Source: a virus. Taken from it: a stretch of 23,614 nucleotides of DNA. Of the stretch, positions 2,136 through 20,549 are shown one piece after another. A program made the position numbers and the translations under genes. The notes under the pieces were generated by a model. The model searched no databases. It was given only the letters and a program-made list of their open reading frames with translations, and had not been told where the DNA came from. Where the stretch lies: IMG/VR virus record IMGVR_UViG_3300022871_000115, positions 1 to 23,614 of that record; one strand, given 5' to 3'. Position 1 is the first letter of the stretch; each line of letters starts with the position of its first letter.

Positions 2136-3549
2136 ATTAACTAATTTTGGTATTCATAAAAAATTGAATGTGACCTTCGAGAAAGGCTTAAATGCTATTG
2201 TAGGAGAGAACACAGCAGGTAAAACTCAGATAATGGAAAGTATCTGTTATGCCTTATTCGGTAAAACACAGAACTCAAAATTAGAGAAGATTATTAACTT
2301 CGATGCAGATAAAGCTATATCAGAAATAAATCTGAATGATACACTTGTTCAGAGAGATAGAACAAAAGCAACCTCGTCATTAAATAAAATTAAGAAGATT
2401 GAGTTAGAGAATTTATTGAATATAAATTACAAAGAATTTTTAAGCATCTTTTATATTTCATCGCACGAACAACAAAATCTATTTGACGCCTCTTATCTTA
2501 GAAATTTTCTTATTGAGTTATTTAATTTAAATGAATACTCAACTGTCTATCAAAGATTAAATGTAGAATTAAATACACTAACACAAATTAATACAGAGAT
2601 AGCTAAAGTTAATAAAGAGTTATTAAAGAAAAGATATTTACGAGTTAAGGCCTATAAAACTACACAAGAAAAAAAGATTGACAAATATCATGCAAGTTTA
2701 GATAAAATTCGTGCTGATGTTAATAGCTTATTTGGTAGTAAAGGAAAAATAGAGCAAAAGTTTAATGAGATACAAAGAAAATCAAATCTATTAAAAGCAG
2801 GTAAATGCTCTAAGTGTGAAAGAGATTATTCCGATATCGATGTTAAACAAGGTTTAGAGAAATTAAGTCAAGCAAATTTATTAATAAAAACAAAGGAGTC
2901 AAAGCTTCTAAAAGTATTAGCTGAAACAAAATTAAAAGAGGTTAAATATCAAAGAGCTGTTACTAGCGTAGACAATAAAATTTCAAGATGTATTCGTGTT
3001 ACGACTATCATTAAAGAACAGGCAAATAAAAAATCAGAACTTAGAAATGATAAAAGAATAGCAGAAATTCAATCTGTATTAGCGATATTTAGTCCTAAAG
3101 CATTTCCTTCTCACTTATTAAAAGCATATATTCCAGTTATTATTAATACAGCTAATAAGTTATTAAAATTAATATTTGATAATACTACTGTAGATATTAG
3201 AACAGAAAAACCAGAATCAAATAGACCTGACTTCAAACCTTTTATTAAGAGAGGTAAAGAAATTTTAGAGATGAAAGATTTATCGGGTTCTGAGAGAGTC
3301 TTGGTTAATCTCTGCTTCAGACTAGGCGTTATATCTATCTTCAAGCAACTGTGTAAAACAGAAATTGATTTTATGCTTATTGATGAAGGCTTAGAGCGTG
3401 TTGATGACGATAACAGTATGAGAGTATTACAGATGTTAAAACATTTTATGAAACTGAATTTTCTAAATCAAGTTATATTGGTAACACACAAAACTATTTT
3501 AAAAGACCAAAAAAACATCAACTACATTGAATTAAGGAGAGATGAATAA
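2119..3549 (+). CDS. SbcC/gp46-type recombination ATPase
   Basis: This is a 476-residue Rad50/SbcC-like ABC ATPase. The Walker A is GENTAGKT (29-36), one residue off the usual GxNGxGKS. A short coiled-coil middle carries a zinc-hook CxxC (C230, C233), the ABC signature is LSGSE near 386, and the Walker B reads MLIDEG with D422/E423, followed by a late VTHK switch histidine. All catalytic parts are present. It is shorter than T4 gp46 (about 560 residues) and far shorter than bacterial SbcC (about 1,000), so the coiled-coil arms are short. It would form a complex with the SbcD-like nuclease at 145 to process DNA ends. The two subunits are separated here by resolvase and zincin genes. The start overlaps the previous gene and the stop abuts the M16 gene (TAATG). 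Confidence 0.87.
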   Translation: MLKNVKLTNFGIHKKLNVTFEKGLNAIVGENTAGKTQIMESICYALFGKTQNSKLEKIINFDADKAISEINLNDTLVQRDRTKATSSLNKIKKIELENLLNINYKEFLSIFYISSHEQQNLFDASYLRNFLIELFNLNEYSTVYQRLNVELNTLTQINTEIAKVNKELLKKRYLRVKAYKTTQEKKIDKYHASLDKIRADVNSLFGSKGKIEQKFNEIQRKSNLLKAGKCSKCERDYSDIDVKQGLEKLSQANLLIKTKESKLLKVLAETKLKEVKYQRAVTSVDNKISRCIRVTTIIKEQANKKSELRNDKRIAEIQSVLAIFSPKAFPSHLLKAYIPVIINTANKLLKLIFDNTTVDIRTEKPESNRPDFKPFIKRGKEILEMKDLSGSERVLVNLCFRLGVISIFKQLCKTEIDFMLIDEGLERVDDDNSMRVLQMLKHFMKLNFLNQVILVTHKTILKDQKNINYIELRRDE

Positions 3550-4706
3550 TGGCTAACATCAACATTAAATTAGAAGGTAAATCAACAATCGTAGGAACAT
3601 TTATTCCTGTAGGTTCTCGTAATGAGCCAGATAATATTAAGGGCATATCACATTTTCTAGAACATATGTTATTTAAAGGAACAAAGAATCGTAACATGAC
3701 AGAGATTAAACAGGCTATAGATAAATATGGTGCGGTGTTTAATGCTTGGACTTCAGAAGAACACACATTTTTCTATGTTGTTATTAGCAATAAATATGTA
3801 TCTGAGGCAAGACAGATTATCGACGATATGATAGAAAATTCTATCTTTCCGGAAGAAGAACTTGAAAAAGAAAAACAAGTTGTTTTGCAAGAATTAGAAA
3901 TGTATGAAGATAATCCTCAATCAGCAGTATTTGAATTAGCTCAGAGAGAAATCTTTTCAGAAGGTTCAAATCTTCACATTCCTATTATTGGAACAAGAGA
4001 AAGTGTTACAGACATTACAAGAGATATTTTAGTTGAATACTATAATAAACATTACAAAAACGCAATTAAGCTAGAGATTGGTGGAACTGTAAGAGAAGCT
4101 AGAAACAGAGTCTATATCGCCTCTCAGTTTAAGCAAGAGTCCGTAACTTATGATACTCAAGATGTCATCTCTTATAGAAATGATATTAGTCAAGCCAACA
4201 TGGTAATGACAGGTTTATTTCATATTAATAATTTAAGAGAAAGATTGATAATGGATTTATTTGAGTCTGTTATTAATGGTTTTTGTGGTCGATTCTTTGA
4301 AGTTATTAGAGAGAAAAATAATTTGGTATACAGCACAGCTCTTTATCTACAAGAACATAGTTGTGGAACAGTTCACTATTGCGGATATGCAGGTTTAAAG
4401 CCGGAGAAAGTTCAGTTCGCAAAAGAATTAATGTTAGAGCAATTAACAAAAGAGGTCTCACAAGAAGAGTTAGACTTTGCAAAAGGTAAATTAATAGGTG
4501 GACATGAGCTGGCTATTGATAAGCCTTCCAACATTGCGAGAATTTTAATTGATTGTTCTTTGAATAATACTGATTACGAGTTTTATCTAAGAGAATACGA
4601 GAAGTCCATTAAAACTATCTCTGTAGAAGAAGTTAATAATTTCATCAAAACGATAGGATTTAAAGATAGTAAGCTAGTTGCTATTCTACCTAGAAAGAAA
4701 AAATGA
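3549..4706 (+). CDS. M16-family zinc metallopeptidase
   Basis: The 385-residue product is a member of the insulinase/mitochondrial-processing-peptidase family (M16). It has the inverted zinc motif HFLEH (H35, E38, H39) and a distal glutamate E115 in VVLQELEM, 76 residues after H39, as in active family members. The C-terminal half has the paired domain with REKNNLVYS near 258-266 and the late conserved GKLIGG segment. Its length fits the bacterial M16B type, which works as a dimer on unfolded peptides. No signal peptide is seen. The start uses TAATG coupling to the SbcC-like gene and the stop overlaps the next zincin by 4 bases, so it belongs to the recombination operon. M16 enzymes are not standard phage genes, and the substrate is unknown. 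Confidence 0.88.
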   Translation: MANINIKLEGKSTIVGTFIPVGSRNEPDNIKGISHFLEHMLFKGTKNRNMTEIKQAIDKYGAVFNAWTSEEHTFFYVVISNKYVSEARQIIDDMIENSIFPEEELEKEKQVVLQELEMYEDNPQSAVFELAQREIFSEGSNLHIPIIGTRESVTDITRDILVEYYNKHYKNAIKLEIGGTVREARNRVYIASQFKQESVTYDTQDVISYRNDISQANMVMTGLFHINNLRERLIMDLFESVINGFCGRFFEVIREKNNLVYSTALYLQEHSCGTVHYCGYAGLKPEKVQFAKELMLEQLTKEVSQEELDFAKGKLIGGHELAIDKPSNIARILIDCSLNNTDYEFYLREYEKSIKTISVEEVNNFIKTIGFKDSKLVAILPRKKK

Positions 4707-5119
4707 GTAAACATAAGAACAGCTCAGAGTTTTTCAAAAAAGTTCTAGACGAGTTATTCGTTGAGTATAAGAATAAAATGCGTCTAAATAAGGACTGGTC
4801 TATCAACGTGAAGGTAGTCAATAAGAAAGACACCTACGCTGAGGTTGTCTATGAGTTCGATGGTAGAGAGTTTAATGTTAATGTAAATAGTAAGATGAAT
4901 AAGTCTGTTGTATCTTTAAGAGACTCCATTATACATGAGTTCTGGCATATATTACTATCCTCTTTAACAAGTCGAATAGATGCGATTTTAGATAGAATAG
5001 AAAATAATAAAACTATCAATGTAAAGAAGCAAAGAAAATTACTCAAAAATGAAGAAGAGAGATTAGTCAGAAAGTTTACACGTATTATAAGAAGTCTGGA
5101 GAAAAAAGACAAGAGATGA
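4703..5119 (+). CDS. putative HExxH zinc metalloprotease (second copy type)
   Basis: This 138-residue protein has HEFWH at H78-E79-H82 in a helix beginning SIIHEF, then a Lys-rich linker and a KNEEE cluster with glutamates 117-119. That is the same order as in the 1683 protein. The likely zinc ligands are H78, H82 and one glutamate of the later helix, in the gluzincin manner, but this is inferred. It has no signal peptide and many lysines. It starts 4 bases inside the M16 gene (ATGA junction) and overlaps the nuclease gene at its 3' end, so two predicted peptidases are translated together within a DNA-processing operon. The substrate is unknown. Proteins with this pattern occur in other phages as uncharacterised genes. 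Confidence 0.55.
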   Translation: MSKHKNSSEFFKKVLDELFVEYKNKMRLNKDWSINVKVVNKKDTYAEVVYEFDGREFNVNVNSKMNKSVVSLRDSIIHEFWHILLSSLTSRIDAILDRIENNKTINVKKQRKLLKNEEERLVRKFTRIIRSLEKKDKR

Positions 5120-9343: not shown

Positions 9344-10070
9344 ACCCTCAAAAGATATGATAGTTTCTAGACGAGAAAAGACAAGAGAGTTGTTTTTAAA
9401 AGGTAAGAATCCTAATGCTATCTCCAAAGAGTTAAGTGTTGCCTATACAACCACTTTAAATGATATTAAATACTTACAGGCTAGATACTCAAGTTTAATT
9501 GTTAAAAATTCTCAGTTAGCTAAAAAACAATTTCAAAGAGTAGAGCAGTTAATTGATGAGGTAGGTTTACTCAAGACAGAGTATTGGAATCTATATGAAG
9601 AAATTACTCTGAAAGTAAAAGAGAATAAACAGAGATTAGTTGAGTGGAAGAAGGAAGTTAAGCGAGTGAAGGCAGAATTAGATATTGCTGATGCGTTGTA
9701 TAAGGCAGATAATGAAAATAAAGAGAAGAGAATAGCGGCCAGAGAGCTTAGAGAGCAGTATGTTAATATATATGATGAACCTAAATATCCAACTTATATT
9801 ACATCTCGAATAGATTCATTGAAGGCAATTTTAGATAGAGTTGATAAGGAATCTAAGTTATTAAGTTTATTTAATCCGCAATCTTTAATGGATAAAAATT
9901 ATGTATCAGTAGAAGTATTACAAAGTATTATGCAGGTATTTAAAACTATTATCACAGACTTAATACCTGAAGATAAAAGAGGTTACGCTTTCAAACGATT
10001 ACGCACAATTAATCTAGACTCGCTCGATACAGAAGAAGTTATTGACGCTGAGTATGAAGAAAGAGCATAA
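9321..10070 (+). CDS. terminase small subunit (putative)
   Basis: The 249-residue protein starts 8 bases after AAGGAG. The N-terminus holds GGRPSK, then a helix-turn-helix (ELFLKGKNPNAISKELSVAYTTTLNDI) as in small terminases that recognise the packaging site. The middle is long, charged and helical (Lys/Glu rich, about residues 65-150), which fits oligomerisation. A further helical segment contains LKAILDRVDKESKLL. The last base of its stop overlaps the large subunit ATG (TAATG). The assignment rests on the helix-turn-helix and on its place directly before terL. The similarity to a named family is not certain. Confidence 0.75.
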   Translation: MTKNTGGRPSKDMIVSRREKTRELFLKGKNPNAISKELSVAYTTTLNDIKYLQARYSSLIVKNSQLAKKQFQRVEQLIDEVGLLKTEYWNLYEEITLKVKENKQRLVEWKKEVKRVKAELDIADALYKADNENKEKRIAARELREQYVNIYDEPKYPTYITSRIDSLKAILDRVDKESKLLSLFNPQSLMDKNYVSVEVLQSIMQVFKTIITDLIPEDKRGYAFKRLRTINLDSLDTEEVIDAEYEERA

Positions 10071-11830
10071 TGGCAGATAAACAAGATTGGCAAAATTTTT
10101 GGGAAGATGCAGAGCAGAAAGTTGTTAGCAAATCAAAGAAGTTTGCTATTCAGCCTGTCTCTGCGGAGATATTTTTTAGAGATTGGTTAAAGTCTCCTTT
10201 ATTTCCTAGACAGCAAAAAGCTGTATCGGCCGCTTTTAATGGTGGCTACACAATGTTAAGTGAGAAGTTTAATGAATTTGTTCTGGCTTGGGGAAAAGGC
10301 TCAGGAAAAGATTTAACTATTGCTTGTCTTTTATGTTATACTATTTACTGGTTATGTTGTTTAAATGACCCTCAAGAGACGCTAGGTATTAAGAGTGGTG
10401 AACCTATTGATGTTGTTAATGTTGCCTTTGATGCAGACCAAGCAAAGTCTGTATTTTTTGAGAAATTTGTAAGAATGGTTAGTCAGACAATAGACCCAGT
10501 TACAGGAAAGAATTTCTTTGAAGAATTGGGAATGAATATTGATAGAGACATTATTCGTAATGCTATTTTATTTCCTAAGAATATTAGAGCGTGGGCGATG
10601 AACTCTAGAGAATCAAAATCTGAGGGTAAAAATGTAGTTCTAGGAATCTTTGATGAGATTGGAACTTTTAGATTTGACCAGGCACAAAACATAAGAAAAC
10701 ATATTAGAACATCAGCAAGAACACGTTGTCCTAAACATTATAAATTATTTTATATTTCTTATTTGACATCTCCAAATGATTACATGTCTTATCTTTTAGA
10801 TAGAGCAGAAGATGGACATATGCCAAAGACTTATTGTGATAGAGCGGCCACTTGGGATATTAGGTCAGATAAAAAATGCTTACCAGAAATAAAGAAATAT
10901 GCAGTACATAAAGAAACTTATAAAGAAGAATTTGATGAGGATCCTTCCACAGCTATGTTAATGTATGAGTGTAAGATACCTAAGTATAGAGCCAATAACT
11001 TTATTAAGAGAGCGGATAGAATAACAGATTGCATTAATTATGAGCGAGAATCTCCAGTTATATTAGAAGAAAACGATTCAGAAAGTGCGTTAAATAGATT
11101 CTGGACACACAATATAATGGAGGAAGAATTAGAGCATTGGTTTAGACCATATCATACTCACGAAATAGAGGTAATGGAAAGAGAGTATGAGAACAATCCT
11201 TCAGACGAGTTAGCACAGAAAATTAAGTTTGAAAAAGAGAAACACGCAAATGCTCAGTATTATGTGCATATTGACCTTTCTAGAGGAGTAGTTGATTGTG
11301 CTGGAATTGCTATGGGACACACATATCACATCTTGGATAAAACAAAAATCTATGTTGATTTGATGTTACAAATACGTTCTCCTAAATCTGAAGATAAGTC
11401 CAAAGAGATTGATTTGAACGAAATACTAGAATTTGTTATTACAAAATTATTTAAAAAATTGAAGTTCCCTATTATAAAGGTAACTGCTGATGGCTGGAAC
11501 TCAGCATTATTTTTAAACATCTGCGAGAAAAATGGTATAAGTGCAAAGATTATTTCTTTAGAGAAGAATACTGGGCCCTATGATACACTCAAAGATTTTA
11601 TATATAAAAGAGATATTAATTATTATCTCTATCCACCTGCAATAAGAGAATTAACAGAATTACTTATTACAGATAGAAATAAAATTGACCACCCTAAAGC
11701 TAGTAAATGGAGAATGAGAGAAGAGGGAATCAATAATGGCTCGAAAGATGTTTCAGATTGTTTATCAGGATTTGTATATTCGATAATTGAAGAAGATGAC
11801 GGTGAACCTTTAGCAGTTGTAGGTAAATAA
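10070..11830 (+). CDS. terL: terminase large subunit
   Basis: The 586-residue packaging motor has an ATPase domain with Walker A GKGSGKD (75-81) and Walker B GIFDE (D195, E196). A C-terminal RNase H-like nuclease domain has acidic sites D402 (HIDLSRG), D474 (TADGW) and D563 (SDCLSG). It cuts concatemeric phage DNA and pumps it through the portal. The Walker A ends in Asp rather than Thr/Ser, as seen in some phage large terminases. The domain order and length fit the family. It is followed 22 bases later by the portal gene, the usual order in tailed phages. Confidence 0.93.
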   Translation: MADKQDWQNFWEDAEQKVVSKSKKFAIQPVSAEIFFRDWLKSPLFPRQQKAVSAAFNGGYTMLSEKFNEFVLAWGKGSGKDLTIACLLCYTIYWLCCLNDPQETLGIKSGEPIDVVNVAFDADQAKSVFFEKFVRMVSQTIDPVTGKNFFEELGMNIDRDIIRNAILFPKNIRAWAMNSRESKSEGKNVVLGIFDEIGTFRFDQAQNIRKHIRTSARTRCPKHYKLFYISYLTSPNDYMSYLLDRAEDGHMPKTYCDRAATWDIRSDKKCLPEIKKYAVHKETYKEEFDEDPSTAMLMYECKIPKYRANNFIKRADRITDCINYERESPVILEENDSESALNRFWTHNIMEEELEHWFRPYHTHEIEVMEREYENNPSDELAQKIKFEKEKHANAQYYVHIDLSRGVVDCAGIAMGHTYHILDKTKIYVDLMLQIRSPKSEDKSKEIDLNEILEFVITKLFKKLKFPIIKVTADGWNSALFLNICEKNGISAKIISLEKNTGPYDTLKDFIYKRDINYYLYPPAIRELTELLITDRNKIDHPKASKWRMREEGINNGSKDVSDCLSGFVYSIIEEDDGEPLAVVGK

Positions 11831-11852: not shown

Positions 11853-13100
11853 ATGTCAAAGAAAGTAACTAGAAAAGTAGCAAAAAATTCGGTAGGTCGA
11901 CCAAGAAAGACTTCGGTTAGATTGAAACCTACGGAGCAAGTAAGAGATAAAAAAGTGGAGTCTGTTAGTTTTGGAACTAATTCTACTACATATGCGCCAT
12001 ACTCAAGACAATCTATAGAGCAACTTAGAGAGCTGATTATGACTACTATATGGGCAGAGGCATGTGTTGAGACTATTGTAGACGAGGTTGTGAAGTATGA
12101 CCTGTTTACAGACCCTATGGAAGAGGTAGATGATATTCAAGGATTTTTAAATTATCCTTCTTTAAAAGAACCTCTATTTATGATTAGAAAGCAGTATTTA
12201 AAAGATATGCTTAGATGGGGAAACGGTGCTTGTATTATTGAGTATAAGAATAAATTACCTAGTCAATTAACAGTTGTACCAGGTTATACTCTAAGAATTA
12301 CAGACGATAATCCACCAAAGTATAAATTTATGAAAATAGGAAGTTCTTCTGAGTTCAAGAAAAATAAAAGTGGAGAAAAAGACCTTCTATTAAAACATAA
12401 AGAAGTTATGCACTTTTGTATTAACAAAGATAGTGATGCAACACTAGGCACAAGTTCTATCGAAAGAGGTTATGATGATATAACAACAGATAGAGAGGCC
12501 GCTAAGAAGTTAGTTGCTTTCATTAAAAGAGGCTTTTACAAACCTGCATTTGTTTCCTTTAAAAAAGGTTCTTCTGTATCTAAGAAAGAATTACAGGACT
12601 TCGTAGAATACTTGAACGGACTTATGATTGAGGGTGCTAAGATGTTGGGTATTAATAAAGAAGTTGACTTGAAAGAGATTCCTTTTTGGGACGCCTCGGA
12701 TATTATTGATATTCAAAAATGGATGGGTCTTAAAGTTGCGTCTATTTATAAAGTTCCACCATTTATGTTAAATCTTGCACAAGGTGTAGGTTCATTAAAT
12801 GCAAGAGAGCAAAAGGCTCGTTTCTTAGAGAATGTTGTTATGCCTATTCTAAAATACGAATCTTTTATCTACAATAATGTTTTAGTTAGATTAGGTTTTC
12901 AAAATCTAGACACAAAAGTAGTATCGAATCTTTTAGGCACAAGACTTAATTATGATAAGGCAAGAATAGCAAATCTATTAACTGGAAATGAAGAAGGCGG
13001 TATTCTAACTATAGATGAAGCTAGAAAGTTATTCTTTCACTTACCTACAAAAGCTGTTGCAGAAGAGGCCTTGAAAAAAGATTCAAAAAAGACAAAATAA
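11853..13100 (+). CDS. portal protein
   Basis: The 415-residue protein starts after a strong AGGAGG. It is the dodecameric channel at the capsid vertex that the terminase docks to. Portal-like features are a helical LRELIMTTIWAEACVETIVDEV near 55-75, a WGNGACIIEY strand near 125, LGTSSIERGYDDI near 200, and a late stem/crown region KVPPFMLNL with LNAREQKARFLENVV near 297-327, typical of SPP1/HK97-type portals. The first 30 residues are very basic and include GRPRK, an AT-hook-like patch not expected in a portal. The position directly after terL agrees. The next gene has its own promoter, so this gene ends the packaging operon. Confidence 0.87.
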   Translation: MSKKVTRKVAKNSVGRPRKTSVRLKPTEQVRDKKVESVSFGTNSTTYAPYSRQSIEQLRELIMTTIWAEACVETIVDEVVKYDLFTDPMEEVDDIQGFLNYPSLKEPLFMIRKQYLKDMLRWGNGACIIEYKNKLPSQLTVVPGYTLRITDDNPPKYKFMKIGSSSEFKKNKSGEKDLLLKHKEVMHFCINKDSDATLGTSSIERGYDDITTDREAAKKLVAFIKRGFYKPAFVSFKKGSSVSKKELQDFVEYLNGLMIEGAKMLGINKEVDLKEIPFWDASDIIDIQKWMGLKVASIYKVPPFMLNLAQGVGSLNAREQKARFLENVVMPILKYESFIYNNVLVRLGFQNLDTKVVSNLLGTRLNYDKARIANLLTGNEEGGILTIDEARKLFFHLPTKAVAEEALKKDSKKTK

Positions 13101-15164: not shown

Positions 15165-17369
15165 ATGCACATTAAAAATTTAGATAAAATTAAAGAGATG
15201 ATTAAGTCTAAATTACCTGAATATCTTAACGAATTAGGTTGCAGAACAAATGGTGGTAAAGTGCAATGTCCAAATTCAGCGGCGCATGACCATAATGATG
15301 AGACTAAACTATCAGCGGCCTTTTTACCTGATTCTAAGAATCATTTAATTTACTGTTTTGTTGAACAGCGTTCTTTTGATATATTTGATATTTATGGTAT
15401 TAAAAATAACGTATCAATTAAAGGCTCAAGCTTTTTTGATGCAGTTAAAGCTTTGGCTAGAAAATATAGTATTCCTGTTGAAGAAGAGTACGAATATTCA
15501 CAAATTGAGAAAGCTACGAATAGACAAAGAAAATTTTTAGAGAATCTTCATAAGTTATCTATTCAGAAGAAAAATTTACAGCGAGGTGTTACTTATTATA
15601 AACAAAGAAATATTAATAAAGAGAAACTTCTAACTTGGAAAATTGGTTGCTTATCTCCTAATGATATTACACCTGCATTAAATAAAGAATGTAAAAGTTT
15701 ATTTGATTATAGATTACTGTCTGTATTTCATAAAGAAGGCCTTGTAATTCCTATTCTAAATGAAAACAATCAATATTCAGGTATAATTATTCGTATGTTT
15801 AATACTGAAGATAATGACCCATATATTAAAATCTGTATTAAAGGAAGTAATTTGTTCAATATAGAGCGTGTTAGAGGACATGATGAATTAACTATTGTAG
15901 AGGGACCTTTTGATGCTATTGCCTTACATCCAAATCAAAATGTTATTGGTTGTTTAACGAATGTTATTAATGATGCTAATTTAGAGAAGATAGCGAACAT
16001 AGAATTTAAGAAAATATTTTTAGCTTTAGACCCAGATAACTTATACAAGGGAACCGCAAGAGATGGTTTTTTAAGAACAATAGTCAGAATGAAGAATTTA
16101 GACTCTGAGATTTTTCTTATAAAGATTCCTGTCATAGAGGGCGAAGCTAAACCTGACCCAGACGAGTACATGAAAACTCACACTCTGGAAGATTTTAAAG
16201 ATTTACCTAAACTCTCTGCTTTAAAGTATCTTATAGAGAATTATGAAAAAGGCTTGATTAAAGAAAAAATTATCTATGACTTCATTGCAGGTTGTCCTAA
16301 TTTAATTAGAAAAGAAGCTTACATTACTGAATGTGCTGAATCTCTAAAGATTGGTAAAAGACAACTTACAAAATCAATAGATGATATGTCTAATTCTTCT
16401 ACCTCTTTTAACATGATTCAGTATGTGCAAGAAAAAGATGCTTACGATGAATTGTTAGAAGATTTCACAGAACTTGCTTGGAATAAAAACTTTGCAGGTA
16501 TTCCTTCTGGCTTTCCTTTATTTGATAAGAGATTTGGTGGTTTTGAAGATACGCTTTATTTATTAGCTGGCTTTCCAGAAACAGGCAAAACTACATTTTT
16601 ATTAAACTTTGTCTATAAGTTGGCAATGAATGATGATACGCTTGTTGCTTTCTACTCACTAGATGATGGTGCTAAGAGAGCTATTCTCCCAAGACTAATG
16701 AGTATTACCTCTGGTCTAACATCTAAACAAGTAAGACAGCCTGATAAAGAGACACATGACAAGTGGTTTGATGGTATGAGTCAGTTAAAGAAAATGAAAG
16801 ATAATATCATTATTAAAGATGGCTCTCACATTAGAACTCTTGAAGATTTAGATAATTATGTTAAAATTCATTCTACAATAGCTATTGAAAGAGGTAAGAA
16901 ATTTGTAGTAGTTATTGATAATTTACATGACTTACAGGCTGGTGGTGGAAAGAGTTTAGAAGCTACTCATAATGCTCAACGAGTTGCCTCTTATTTAAAG
17001 AGATTACCACAGCAAATTAATTGTCCTATCATATCTACAGCAGAGGTACCAAAATCCTCATCTGCTAAACCTAGTGGAAAAGATATTAAAGAATCTATTG
17101 ATTTGTGGTATGCGTCAAGATTCGTTGGTGGTGTTTACTCTAACTTTCATCAAGTAAAAAATATTCAAGATAGTAATTTACATTGGGTAGATGAAACTGG
17201 AGCATACAATCCAATTATGGAACTTTTTGTTTCTAAGAATCAGACAGGTGATGCTTTACATGGTTCACTCTTCTTTAAGTTTAGATTTTCAAACAATACT
17301 CTTACTGAATGTAATGAGCGAGAAACAGATATATTAAAAGATGGTGGTTTTTTAACCTTCATGGAATAA
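15165..17369 (+). CDS. primase-helicase (TOPRIM plus DnaB-type ATPase)
   Basis: This 734-residue replication protein resembles T7 gp4/Twinkle-type enzymes. The N-terminal zinc site is degenerate: CPNSAAHDH (C35, H41, H43), then YCFVEQRSFDIFD with C64 but no fourth cysteine. The TOPRIM primase domain has IVEGPFDA (E246) and ALDPD (D289, D291). The C-terminal RecA-like helicase has Walker A GFPETGKTT (469-477), a following FYSLDDG and Walker B VVVIDNLHD (D585). Zinc finger, primase and helicase stand in the expected order, so one protein can unwind DNA and prime the lagging strand. It begins directly after the 14664 gene stop. No separate DnaB- or DnaG-like gene is in the window. Confidence 0.92.
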   Translation: MHIKNLDKIKEMIKSKLPEYLNELGCRTNGGKVQCPNSAAHDHNDETKLSAAFLPDSKNHLIYCFVEQRSFDIFDIYGIKNNVSIKGSSFFDAVKALARKYSIPVEEEYEYSQIEKATNRQRKFLENLHKLSIQKKNLQRGVTYYKQRNINKEKLLTWKIGCLSPNDITPALNKECKSLFDYRLLSVFHKEGLVIPILNENNQYSGIIIRMFNTEDNDPYIKICIKGSNLFNIERVRGHDELTIVEGPFDAIALHPNQNVIGCLTNVINDANLEKIANIEFKKIFLALDPDNLYKGTARDGFLRTIVRMKNLDSEIFLIKIPVIEGEAKPDPDEYMKTHTLEDFKDLPKLSALKYLIENYEKGLIKEKIIYDFIAGCPNLIRKEAYITECAESLKIGKRQLTKSIDDMSNSSTSFNMIQYVQEKDAYDELLEDFTELAWNKNFAGIPSGFPLFDKRFGGFEDTLYLLAGFPETGKTTFLLNFVYKLAMNDDTLVAFYSLDDGAKRAILPRLMSITSGLTSKQVRQPDKETHDKWFDGMSQLKKMKDNIIIKDGSHIRTLEDLDNYVKIHSTIAIERGKKFVVVIDNLHDLQAGGGKSLEATHNAQRVASYLKRLPQQINCPIISTAEVPKSSSAKPSGKDIKESIDLWYASRFVGGVYSNFHQVKNIQDSNLHWVDETGAYNPIMELFVSKNQTGDALHGSLFFKFRFSNNTLTECNERETDILKDGGFLTFME

Positions 17370-17387: not shown

Positions 17388-17561
17388 ATGGATAATGTAA
17401 AGAGAATTCTTATTAAAACAGTTAAAGACCCTATGATTTCTATTATGAAAATAATTAAATCTAAAGATAATGATACTGCAAAACTAAAAGCAATAAGTCT
17501 TTATTGTACCTGTGTTTTAACGGCAGTCAATAAAACTATTCTGAGAGATAATGAAATCTAA
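17388..17561 (+). CDS. small helical protein (57 aa), unknown
   Basis: The ATG at 17388 lies 19 bases after the primase-helicase stop, with GAAAG upstream. The 57 residues look helical: an N-terminal Lys/Ile-rich helix (IKTVKDPMISIMKIIKSK) and a second hydrophobic stretch with two cysteines (YCTCVL). The stop overlaps the heptose-kinase start by 11 bases, which supports translation of both. No family is recognised. Confidence 0.5.
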   Translation: MDNVKRILIKTVKDPMISIMKIIKSKDNDTAKLKAISLYCTCVLTAVNKTILRDNEI

Positions 17562-18492
17562 TCTAAATAAAAAGAATATACTTGTTGTTGGTGACCTAAT
17601 GCTTGATAAGTATGTTAGAGGCTCAGTCTCACGCATATCTCCAGAAGCACCTGTTCCAATATTAAGTAAAGACTCTAGTGAGTATAAGTTAGGTGGCTGT
17701 GCTAATGTGGCTAAAAATTTAACAGCTCTTGGTGCAAATGTTTGGATTGTAGGCAAAATAGGTGAAGATATTGAAGGTTCTATTGTCTCAGAGTTATTGC
17801 AGAAGAAAGGAATAAACATTAATCTATTAATTGCAGACAAAAACGTAGTTACTACACAAAAGACAAGATACATCTCAGGCAATCAGCATCTATTGAGAGT
17901 TGATAGAGAACATATTTGTTTTAATAATTTTAAACTAGATGTAATTAAAGAGGATTTAGAGCGACACGCTAGATACTTCGATGCAATAATAGTATCTGAT
18001 TATGATAAAGGTATGATTAATGTAGAGTTAGCAGAATTTTTAGGTAAACTAGCTTTAAAGAAAAATAAGATTATAACAGTTGACACGAAGAAAGCAGATG
18101 TCAGTTGTTTTGCTAACTATACTTCCATTACACCTAATTTAAAGGAGTTATCTAAGATATTTAATACTAATATAACTGATTATAAAGCTTCTTTTGAATT
18201 AGCTCATAAATTATTAGCTGAGTATTGTTTTGAAAATGTGCTTATAACACTAAGCGAGAATGGTTTATATTATGCAGATAATTTTATTGGCAATCATCTA
18301 AAAGCAGAAAAGCAGGAAATTGTTGATGTAACAGGTTGTGGTGATACGATAATATCTACATTTACTTTAGCTCTCGCAAATGGTTTAGGTCTAGAGATGA
18401 GTGCTAATATTGCTAACATAACAGCTGGAATAGTGGCTTTAAAATCTGGTGCTGAAAGTTGTTCTCTCGACGAACTCGATGATAATTCTTAG
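17551..18492 (+). CDS. PfkB-family kinase, HldE/RfaE domain-I type (heptose-7-phosphate kinase)
   Basis: The 313-residue ribokinase-fold protein matches the kinase half of HldE (RfaE), not a general sugar kinase. It has VGDLMLDKYVRG, the hallmark SRISPEAPVPIL near 24-35, GGCANVAKN near 49-57, NQHLLRVDRE near 110-120, SDYDKGM near 149-155 and the anion-hole VDVTGCGDT, with catalytic D265 (E. coli HldE D264). The usual VTGAGDT has Cys for Ala. It would phosphorylate D-glycero-D-manno-heptose 7-phosphate at C1, a step toward ADP-heptose for lipopolysaccharide core. The adenylyltransferase domain is absent. The start overlaps a small ORF by 11 bases and has only a weak GAGA site. Reuse for another phosphosugar cannot be excluded. 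Confidence 0.86.
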   Translation: MKSNLNKKNILVVGDLMLDKYVRGSVSRISPEAPVPILSKDSSEYKLGGCANVAKNLTALGANVWIVGKIGEDIEGSIVSELLQKKGININLLIADKNVVTTQKTRYISGNQHLLRVDREHICFNNFKLDVIKEDLERHARYFDAIIVSDYDKGMINVELAEFLGKLALKKNKIITVDTKKADVSCFANYTSITPNLKELSKIFNTNITDYKASFELAHKLLAEYCFENVLITLSENGLYYADNFIGNHLKAEKQEIVDVTGCGDTIISTFTLALANGLGLEMSANIANITAGIVALKSGAESCSLDELDDNS

Positions 18493-19193: not shown

Positions 19194-19349
19194 ATGATAA
19201 AGAAATATAAAGACCCAAGTAAATTAGAGCTTGAGAATATAATTATTGATGCAATAAAAGATTTTGATGTTGCACCGGTTGTTGAGCTTATGTTTAAAGA
19301 ATATGCCTGGGTATCAGCTAAAGCAATTAAGAGAAGATTGAGAAAATGA
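19194..19349 (+). CDS. small helical protein (51 aa)
   Basis: The ATG at 19194 lies in an A-rich stretch with only a weak ribosome site. The 51-residue product has two predicted helices (KLELENIIIDAIKDF and VVELMFKEYAWVSAKAIKRRLRK) and a basic end. Its stop overlaps the next ATG (ATGA). No family is recognised. An earlier 13-codon ORF at 19169 is not counted as a gene. Confidence 0.45.
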   Translation: MIKKYKDPSKLELENIIIDAIKDFDVAPVVELMFKEYAWVSAKAIKRRLRK

Positions 19350-19471
19350 AAAGACTTAGAATGAAAATGTTTAAAATGATAGAGATAGCAGTTTTTATAA
19401 TCGTAGTAGCTGTGCCTTTAGCAGTATGGAAAATAATAGACTTAGTAATTCAACTAAAGAATAGGATATAA
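19346..19471 (+). CDS. single-span membrane peptide (41 aa) next to the site-2 protease
   Basis: The peptide has a strongly basic N-terminus (KRLRMKMFK), one hydrophobic span (about 12-27, AVFIIVVAVPLAVW) and a short polar tail. This suggests an N-in single-pass inner-membrane peptide. It starts in an ATGA overlap and ends 3 bases before the M50 protease gene. The orientation and the helix-breaking proline in the span are compatible with a site-2 protease substrate or partner, which is inferred from context only. Confidence 0.55.
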   Translation: MKRLRMKMFKMIEIAVFIIVVAVPLAVWKIIDLVIQLKNRI

Positions 19472-19474
19472 TTT

Positions 19475-20095
19475 ATGTGGCTAATATATTGTGCAATACT
19501 TTTAGGTTCAGTAATTTTACATGAGCTGGGACATCTTCTAGCTTCTCTATATTTTAAGGTTCCTGTATATGCTTTTTCTGTAGGCTTCGGTCCCATATTA
19601 TTACATAAAACAATAGGTAAGATTGATTGGAGAATATCTCTATTACCTTTTGGTGGTTACTGTAAAATAGAAGAATCTCTTGACGTAAAGAATAGCTTGA
19701 CAAATATAGCTTATTATAAACAAGTTATTATTCTAATGGCCGGTATAGCAATGAATCTATTAGTGGCTTTTACATGCTATCTAATTCACTATGGTTCGAT
19801 TATTAAGGGTATTTACATAGATTACTCTGTGATAGCTTACTATTTTACAGGTACGATGAACCTCGTAAGCCTAGACAGCTTTAATGTAGTATTGTTCTAT
19901 ACAGCATTTTTGAATAGCACGTTATTTGTATTTAATCTTTTACCAATACCCGCACTTGATGGTGGTTATCTTTGGATACTTCCATTACGTAGAAAGATGT
20001 CAGATAAATTTTATAAATATTTAATTAATATATCATTCGCACTATTAATGATAGTCCAAGTAATGATAATAATACTTTGGTGGATATCAAAATAA
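19475..20095 (+). CDS. site-2 protease-like M50 intramembrane metalloprotease
   Basis: The 206-residue membrane protein has the full active site of family M50. HELGH (H16, E17, H20) lies in the first transmembrane helix, followed by GFGP, LPFGGYCK near 57-64 and GIAMN at 90-94. NLLPIPALDGG (154-164) carries the third zinc ligand D162. Hydrophobic spans surround residues 1-25, 84-105, 138-160 and 183-204. There is no PDZ domain, so it is a minimal version (E. coli RseP has about 450 residues with tandem PDZ). Such enzymes cut transmembrane peptides within the bilayer, often to release regulators. The gene has a weak AGGAT ribosome site and sits among tiny membrane-protein genes. I know of no established phage role for M50. 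Confidence 0.88.
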   Translation: MWLIYCAILLGSVILHELGHLLASLYFKVPVYAFSVGFGPILLHKTIGKIDWRISLLPFGGYCKIEESLDVKNSLTNIAYYKQVIILMAGIAMNLLVAFTCYLIHYGSIIKGIYIDYSVIAYYFTGTMNLVSLDSFNVVLFYTAFLNSTLFVFNLLPIPALDGGYLWILPLRRKMSDKFYKYLINISFALLMIVQVMIIILWWISK

Positions 20096-20104
20096 AGGAA
20101 ACAT

Positions 20105-20302
20105 ATGAGCTGTTACATTAAAGACTTACGAGAAGAAAATAGATTATTAAGAGAAGCTTTTGATAAATTTTCAAGTAGATTCTACTGCATGGGTGGTCCC
20201 TTAAATGATAATGTATTGCAATTTGATACAGCACAGCAGGTTTACTTAGCTCGTTTTCAAGATGAAATGAAACAAACATTAGGGGAGGTCCCACGTGCCT
20301 AG
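20105..20302 (+). CDS. small protein of unknown function (65 aa)
   Basis: It starts 6-7 bases after AAAGGA, 9 bases after the protease stop. The first 25 residues form a charged helix (DLREENRLLREAFDKF), possibly a short coiled coil. The rest is mixed (YCMGGPL, then a QQVYLARFQDEM helix). The end overlaps the next gene by 8 bases. No family is recognised. Confidence 0.5.
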   Translation: MSCYIKDLREENRLLREAFDKFSSRFYCMGGPLNDNVLQFDTAQQVYLARFQDEMKQTLGEVPRA

Positions 20303-20375
20303 AGAATTTACTAGAGATTTAATCGCATTAATGCAAACTATAATATTGGTAATAATATTAGCTAAAGTTTGGTAA
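20295..20375 (+). CDS. very small membrane peptide with GTG start (26 aa)
   Basis: A GTG codon lies 6 bases after the strongest Shine-Dalgarno of the area (GGGGAGG, 20282-20288), which decides this start. The 26-residue product has a charged front (PREFTRDL) and one hydrophobic span (MQTIILVIILAKVW). It overlaps the end of the previous gene by 8 bases and is followed by a second tiny membrane peptide after TAAGGAG. Size and pattern resemble single-span phage micro-peptides. No family is recognised. Confidence 0.5.
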   Translation: MPREFTRDLIALMQTIILVIILAKVW

Positions 20376-20384
20376 GGAGTTTAT

Positions 20385-20468
20385 ATGCAATATGTTTATT
20401 TAGCACTTTACTTCGCAGTTATTTTAGGAATAGCAAGACTATTAAATCGTTTAGATGCAAAAAAATAA
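20385..20468 (+). CDS. very small membrane peptide (27 aa)
   Basis: The ATG follows AAGGAG by about 6 bases, a good site. The product of 27 residues has one hydrophobic span (YVYLALYFAVILGIA) and a basic tail (RLLNRLDAKK). It ends 4 bases before the tRNA gene. It is the second of two consecutive peptides of this kind, and both lie just downstream of the site-2 protease. Confidence 0.5.
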   Translation: MQYVYLALYFAVILGIARLLNRLDAKK

Positions 20469-20472
20469 GATA

Positions 20473-20549
20473 TGCGGGGACAAGCTTTGGTAGGCTAAGG
20501 TGTCTCATAAGCATCTGTATTGTGGGTTCGATTCCCACCCCCGCAACCA
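20473..20549 (+). tRNA. tRNA with anticodon CAT (Met or Ile2)
   Basis: A cloverleaf can be drawn. The acceptor stem TGCGGGG (20473-20479) pairs with CCCCGCA (20539-20545), and A plus encoded CCA (20547-20549) follow. The D-stem is A-G-C/G-C-T with a GGTAGG loop and a mismatch at the outer pair. The anticodon stem (20499-20503 with 20511-20515) holds loop CTCATAA, giving anticodon CAT after T33 and with A37. The T-stem GTGGG/CCCAC has loop TTCGATT. The variable loop is 6 bases. T1-A72 pairing argues against an initiator. Elongator Met and lysidine-modified Ile2 cannot be separated by eye. Confidence 0.9.

Follow-up and report, generated by a model that had tools for sequence, protein, structure and literature searches.

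The stretch of DNA analysed here, referred to as the window, is 23,614 nucleotides long and corresponds to positions 1 to 23,614 of the IMG/VR virus record IMGVR_UViG_3300022871_000115. Towards its right-hand end lies a gene for a site-2 protease (S2P) of the M50 family, preceded by two very short genes on the same strand. The features of this locus are as follows:

19194..19349, + strand: 51-aa gene; its TGA stop and the start codon of the peptide gene share the sequence ATGA (ORF calls)
19346..19471, + strand: 41-aa single-span membrane peptide, candidate substrate or partner, 3 bp before the S2P gene (contig conservation, omega)
19475..20095, + strand: PDZ-less S2P (M50), 206 aa, ATG start (Pfam PF02163, AlphaFold, Foldseek, omega)
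19520..19534, + strand: HELGH, residues 16-20, zinc ligands and catalytic Glu in helix 1 (alignment, model)
19565..19669, + strand: membrane-reentrant β-hairpin, residues 31-65, with GFGP and the PxGG motif LPFGGY (model strands 31-47 and 50-65)
19934..19966, + strand: NLLPIPALDGG, residues 154-164, with the third zinc ligand D162 (alignment)

The preliminary description had presented this reading frame as a minimal M50 S2P with a complete active site, HELGH in its first membrane helix and no PDZ domain. Each of these points has been borne out: the frame encodes 206 residues from an ATG, HELGH, LPFGGY and NLLPIPALDGG are all present, HELGH lies in model helix 2-26, Pfam finds M50 only, and profile, structure, conservation, tree and synteny agree. 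The Pfam Peptidase_M50 model (PF02163) matches residues 7-193, nearly the full length of the protein, with an E-value of 2.5e-34 and 119 bits against a family cut-off of 27.2 bits. As M50 is the sole Pfam domain matched, the Pfam search places neither a PDZ nor a CBS domain in the window S2P. The motifs read H16-E17-x-x-H20, P58-x-G60-G61 and N154...P157-x-P159-x-L161-D162-G163-G164, and the third-ligand Asp characteristic of M50 is found as D162 in PALDGG (the LDG motif). H16, E17, H20, G37, G90, N154, P157, P159, L161, D162 and G163 do not vary among 41 aligned S2Ps taken from IMG/VR contigs, and G60 and G61 are conserved in at least 90%. HExxH and NxxPxPxLDG occurred together in none of 200,000 shuffled copies of the protein. 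The S2P is under purifying selection (omega about 0.16 against relatives), and the GC content of its gene, 0.306, matches the 0.309 of the window. The frame very probably encodes a catalytically competent S2P. The S2Ps of two related contigs (L006 and L007) have HELSH in place of HELGH, with the HExxH ligands intact.

Structure prediction depended on the alignment supplied: with three near-identical sequences AlphaFold returned a pLDDT of 37.7, and with the 41 diverse S2P sequences 91.9, with a pTM of 0.87. The latter model has four long helices (2-26, 80-106, 138-154 and 177-205), a short helix (109-125) and a β-hairpin (31-65) that carries the PxGG motif, whilst helix 138-154 runs into LDGG. 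The model thus contains the three-helix core, membrane-reentrant β-loop and PxGG motif that define M50. A role in binding the substrate helix and presenting it has been proposed for this PxGG β-loop in RseP (PMC4597795). The best Foldseek matches in the PDB are the RasP-EcsA complex 9a6w (E 3.8e-8), RseP (7w6y, 7w6x and 9j82) and SpoIVFB (8vjl); the archaeal mjS2P (3b4r) was matched as well. Of the NCBIfam models the nearest is that of RseP, TIGR00054, to which two stretches align with 84.2 bits, below its equivalog cut-off of 147.55 bits. Profile matches to solved relatives (Aquifex, Kangiella and E. coli RseP) fall in the stretches flanking their PDZ region. Group I (RseP) proteins carry a PDZ between helices 2 and 3, and here about 30 residues separate the second and third core helices; Group III (SpoIVFB-type) proteins carry a C-terminal CBS domain, and here the protein ends after helix 177-205. 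Judged from its sequence and predicted fold, the window S2P belongs to the S2P (M50) intramembrane zinc metalloproteases and has an RseP-type catalytic core and no PDZ domain.

The remainder of the window has the gene content of a tailed phage, and three hallmark or replication genes, together with a further metallopeptidase gene, are recognised on the same strand:

3549..4706, + strand: M16 metallopeptidase, HFLEH motif, possible downstream peptidase (Pfam PF00675, E 2.2e-34)
10070..11830, + strand: terminase large subunit, phage hallmark (PHROGs terminase matches, E 1.2e-6)
11853..13100, + strand: portal protein, phage hallmark (Pfam Phage_portal, E 4.4e-22; present on related contigs)
15165..17369, + strand: primase-DnaB helicase (DnaB_C, E 2.2e-21; PHROGs)

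A 48-kb viral contig contains the entire window at 100% identity, and in relatives of 52 kb and 59 kb the gene order is kept, the DNA being 78-89% identical apart from variable stretches; the 59-kb relative continues into a convergent block of tape-measure and tail-like genes. In several related phage contigs that were assembled separately, the S2P gene is found at this same position of the genome. The preliminary description had taken the gene to be phage-encoded, and this stands: terminase, portal and primase-helicase genes lie on the contig and the arrangement recurs in related contigs. M50 proteins are universal in bacteria, and the region could in principle be host DNA misassembled into, or carried along in, a viral contig; recurrence at one position in separate assemblies, terminase and portal genes on the contigs and a phage-only clade in the tree leave this with a negligible probability, and host contamination is rejected.

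The M50 search of phage contigs and the tree with bacterial S2Ps that the preliminary description had proposed revealed S2Ps in many uncultured phages and clades made up of phage sequences only. The tree includes 27 Bacillota S2Ps, its bacterial rows representing one phylum; in it the window S2P groups with L004, L006, L123 (50% identical), L069, L088 and L090 as a phage-only clade of seven members (SH-aLRT 98). A second phage-only clade of 22 members is separate from it and includes contigs of more than 100 kb, up to about 235 kb. A terminase domain scored above the cut-off on 11 of the 34 S2P-bearing contigs tested, many of which are fragments. A scan of a genome collection for S2P relatives returned a single Clostridium locus. 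Matches in a reference phage collection were not counted, being short fragments or bacterial-RseP-like proteins in phage-labelled records. None of five phage S2Ps tested matched a PHROGs family, and no phage S2P was found described in the open-access literature searched; phage M50 proteins are already known as automatic UniProt annotations. Several S2P lineages are thus present in phages.

Several other genes of the window and its relatives deserve a brief description. The M16 protein is YfmH/YfmF-like with an intact HxxEH, and the reference phages matched include Bacillus phage G and Microcystis phage MaAM05. Zincin-like HExxH-type motifs (HEVCHFW, HEFWHIL, HESCH) occur in small proteins at 1683-2135 (which has a weak SprT-like match) and 4703-5119 of the window and at L005:7203-7862, and the window's phage seems rich in metallopeptidase-like proteins. 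Positions 17551-18492 encode a PfkB-family kinase near HldE domain I (heptose-7-phosphate kinase; E 2.6e-91, below the equivalog cut-off), and two cytidylyltransferase-like genes were recognised by eye among the structural genes of the 59-kb relative; this suggests phage sugar-nucleotide synthesis. Shortly after the S2P region comes a tRNA with a CAT anticodon (20473-20549). Multi-span proteins of about 395 aa that by eye resemble BT1-type transporters are encoded downstream of the S2P in L069 and L041, and a similar one, also by eye, occurs in the window's phage (12689-13876 of the oriented 48-kb relative). Small membrane proteins that look SemiSWEET-like by eye are found near the L123 S2P and near the structural block of the 59-kb relative.

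The gene immediately upstream of the S2P falls below the 50-aa cut-off used for open reading frames and is therefore absent from the default list. It encodes the 41-aa peptide MKRLRMKMFKMIEIAVFIIVVAVPLAVWKIIDLVIQLKNRI, whose N-terminal charge of +5, against +2 after the helix, predicts an N-in orientation. Across relatives the peptide is 56-59% identical with an omega of 0.22-0.25, and Pro24, in the middle of the helix, is invariant. When IMG/VR was scanned, the peptide turned up on exactly those six contigs that carry the close S2P relatives and on no other; the peptide gene lies 3 bp upstream of the S2P in 6/6, although no more than two or three distinct phages are represented among them. 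The sole long blastn block in common with relatives from 18.7 to 23.0 kb is 19393-20054, which spans the peptide and S2P genes, and this block sits within a 4.4-kb hypervariable stretch. The 51-aa gene has a homologue in L005, where it is split from the peptide gene by an inserted 219-aa gene; L005 has gene insertions in three successive upstream intervals and none between peptide and S2P, one unbroken interval in four being weak evidence when taken alone. Two tiny hydrophobic reading frames at 20295-20375 and 20385-20468 (about 26-27 aa) were dropped, as they are not found downstream of the S2P in the relatives L004-L007. Within the window's phage lineage, the peptide gene is tightly linked to the S2P gene.

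The linkage has a limited depth. No recognisable 41-aa peptide lies beside the S2Ps of at most 50% identity (L123, L069 and L088), and a weak 40-aa look-alike lies 1.1 kb from the L090 S2P. The 41-aa peptide may therefore be a recent neighbour, and the idea that it is an ancient obligate partner of the S2P is unsupported.

A second, independent pairing is found in the unrelated clade from large phages, where the gene before the S2P encodes a single-span type II membrane protein of 154-181 aa; about 40-55 residues precede its helix, and the region that follows is coiled-coil-like. Taking the first start codon, the S2P frame and that of the type II protein overlap by 16-40 bp. A search of IMG/VR with the type II protein returned 31 loci; the S2P lies directly downstream in 27 (one broken by a frameshift), two end at a contig edge, and two (L166 and L171) continue with a different gene. 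The S2P thus directly follows in 27 of the 29 testable loci; some of the contigs are near-identical, so the independent cases number fewer than 27. The type II protein belongs to an undescribed family (for example L053:2345-2842 and about 30 other loci in large phages). Its matches to an Rz-like spanin (phrog_739, E 4.5e-5, one member only) and to CcmD_alt are weak and were set aside, since coiled coils and single helices produce such matches. No relation between the type II protein and the 41-aa peptide was detectable; two S2P clades are therefore each linked to a different single-span membrane protein. In other S2P lineages the neighbours are of other kinds: peptide deformylase (PDF), like the other upstream neighbours a soluble protein, is encoded directly upstream in L122, L124 and L125, DnaJ-like genes neighbour the S2P in L049, L052, L063, L073 and L081, and glycosyltransferase-like genes do so in L088 and L123.

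The explanation we favour, with a probability somewhat short of even, is that the PDZ-less S2P cleaves small N-in membrane peptides, with the 41-aa peptide as the leading candidate substrate. The protease would be embedded in the inner membrane of the host, its active site facing the cytoplasmic side, and would cut short N-in (type II) single-span membrane peptides within their helix. As the PDZ size filter is missing, prior site-1 cleavage should not be needed, and the enzyme might act even on peptides whose periplasmic tail is tiny. The 41-aa peptide encoded beside it, predicted to be N-in and with a conserved proline in its helix, would be cut during infection, which would activate it, inactivate it or remove it from the membrane. 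Several properties of cellular S2Ps are consistent with such a scheme. Purified E. coli RseP cuts many single-span membrane proteins no longer than about 50 aa, HokB among them, and RseP substrates are generally N-in/C-out (PMC10470546). SpoIVFB, which is also PDZ-less, needs no site-1 protease (PMC10202637). The preliminary description had suggested that the enzyme might process phage membrane peptides; this now has a concrete candidate in the peptide found in six related contigs, and from that lineage-restricted link we infer the cleavage step. The broader proposal, that at least two unrelated phage lineages carry a self-contained module in which a PDZ-less S2P directly follows its own single-span substrate and serves as an infection switch (in lysis or membrane activity, for example), is rather doubtful.

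Four other roles can be ranked beneath peptide cleavage: counter-defence, then processing together with PDF and M16, then takeover of the envelope stress response, then inhibition by the peptide. The first, which is unlikely, holds that the S2P degrades small toxic membrane peptides of the host (type I toxin-like molecules or abortive-infection effectors) that are lethal to the infected cell. The S2P gene lies within a hypervariable accessory stretch, the usual location of counter-defence genes, and a PDZ-less enzyme should take small peptides without priming. RseP offers a parallel, as its activity neutralises HokB by degradation and rescues growth in a manner dependent on its catalytic Glu (PMC10470546). 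This proposal names neither a host nor a defence target, however, and the conserved pairing of the S2P with a peptide that the phage itself encodes suggests a phage target, at least within the window's lineage.

The neighbourhoods with PDF bring in a less probable role, in which the S2P, a phage PDF and the M16 peptidase mature or clear membrane peptides and signal-peptide remnants. PDF genes are present on 10 of 21 S2P contigs and abut the S2P in the three loci named above, and in L124 the order PDF, S2P, M16 (L124:3305-5694) makes three consecutive metallo-enzyme genes. The window's phage itself has the M16 gene, with a PDF just left of the window, and M16 is rare in reference phages, the window's M16 being matched in 14 of 50,697 records. 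Against this, PDF genes are common in viruses (PMC5591237), the PDF, S2P and M16 genes lie far apart in the window's phage, and M16 was found in only three S2P lineages. Two S2P phages besides the window's carry it, in one of them directly downstream of the S2P.

The preliminary description had also suggested that a phage S2P could rewire host envelope stress signalling. In such a takeover the S2P would cut a host anti-sigma factor without site-1 cleavage and turn on the envelope stress regulon. The possibility follows from the loss of the PDZ, which would remove the need for site-1 cleavage, and disruption of the RseP PDZ does permit RseA cleavage in this way (PMC10202637); sequence and fold are, moreover, closest to RseP/RasP. 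The protein nevertheless scores under the RseP equivalog cut-off, no sigma or anti-sigma gene was recognised near the S2P, and in two clades the linkage to small membrane genes hints at substrates of another kind. The idea thus gains no specific support and is less likely again than the PDF and M16 role.

Finally, the 41-aa peptide could be a regulator of the S2P, an active-site inhibitor resembling BofA, instead of a substrate. PDZ-less SpoIVFB is kept inactive by the small membrane protein BofA (PMC10202637), and co-expression from adjacent genes would suit an enzyme and its inhibitor. However, inhibition of the BofA type needs SpoIVFA and additional proteases, none of which were seen here, and distant S2Ps manage without the peptide, making this the least probable of the four.

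Intramembrane proteolysis in phages appears uncharacterised in the open-access literature searched. The window S2P has dispensed with the restraining part of cellular S2Ps, and small membrane proteins can be named as its candidate substrates. It becomes testable what PDZ-less S2Ps cut, and whether phages employ membrane proteolysis to control lysis, to disarm toxic membrane peptides or to take over envelope signalling.

Among known systems, the closest in both sequence and fold are RseP and RasP (Group I, TIGR00054), which share HExxH, the β-loop with GFG and PxGG, and NxxPxPxLDGG; they are about 340-450 aa long, in contrast to the 206 aa of the PDZ-less, phage-encoded window S2P, which falls below the RseP equivalog cut-off. 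SpoIVFB and mjS2P (Group III) have in common with it a PDZ-less core with a membrane-reentrant β-loop and were among the fold matches (8vjl and 3b4r), but Group III has a CBS domain (PMC10202637) that the window S2P does not, and the likeness in fold and sequence is weaker. PDZ-less S2Ps of about 237 aa from Bacillota (L175, L176, L177 and L181) have the same minimal architecture with intact motifs, and this architecture by itself is therefore not unique to phages; these proteins differ in forming a separate clade and in the longer linker that joins their helices 2 and 3 and carries a GxVGIV-type motif. Two M50 proteins of uncultured Caudovirales in UniProt (A0A6J5SMS1 and A0A6J5RHB6), annotated automatically, have a matching fold but only 19-21% identity to the window S2P, and the literature searched held no account of their function or gene context. 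At the level of gene arrangement the comparison is with YydH, from the locus of the epipeptide YydF. That is a bacterial antimicrobial-peptide locus with a radical SAM epimerase, whereas the window locus is without such a modifying enzyme; the likeness is that YydH, too, is a putative membrane protease encoded beside a small peptide, which is thought to be its substrate (PMC7026026).
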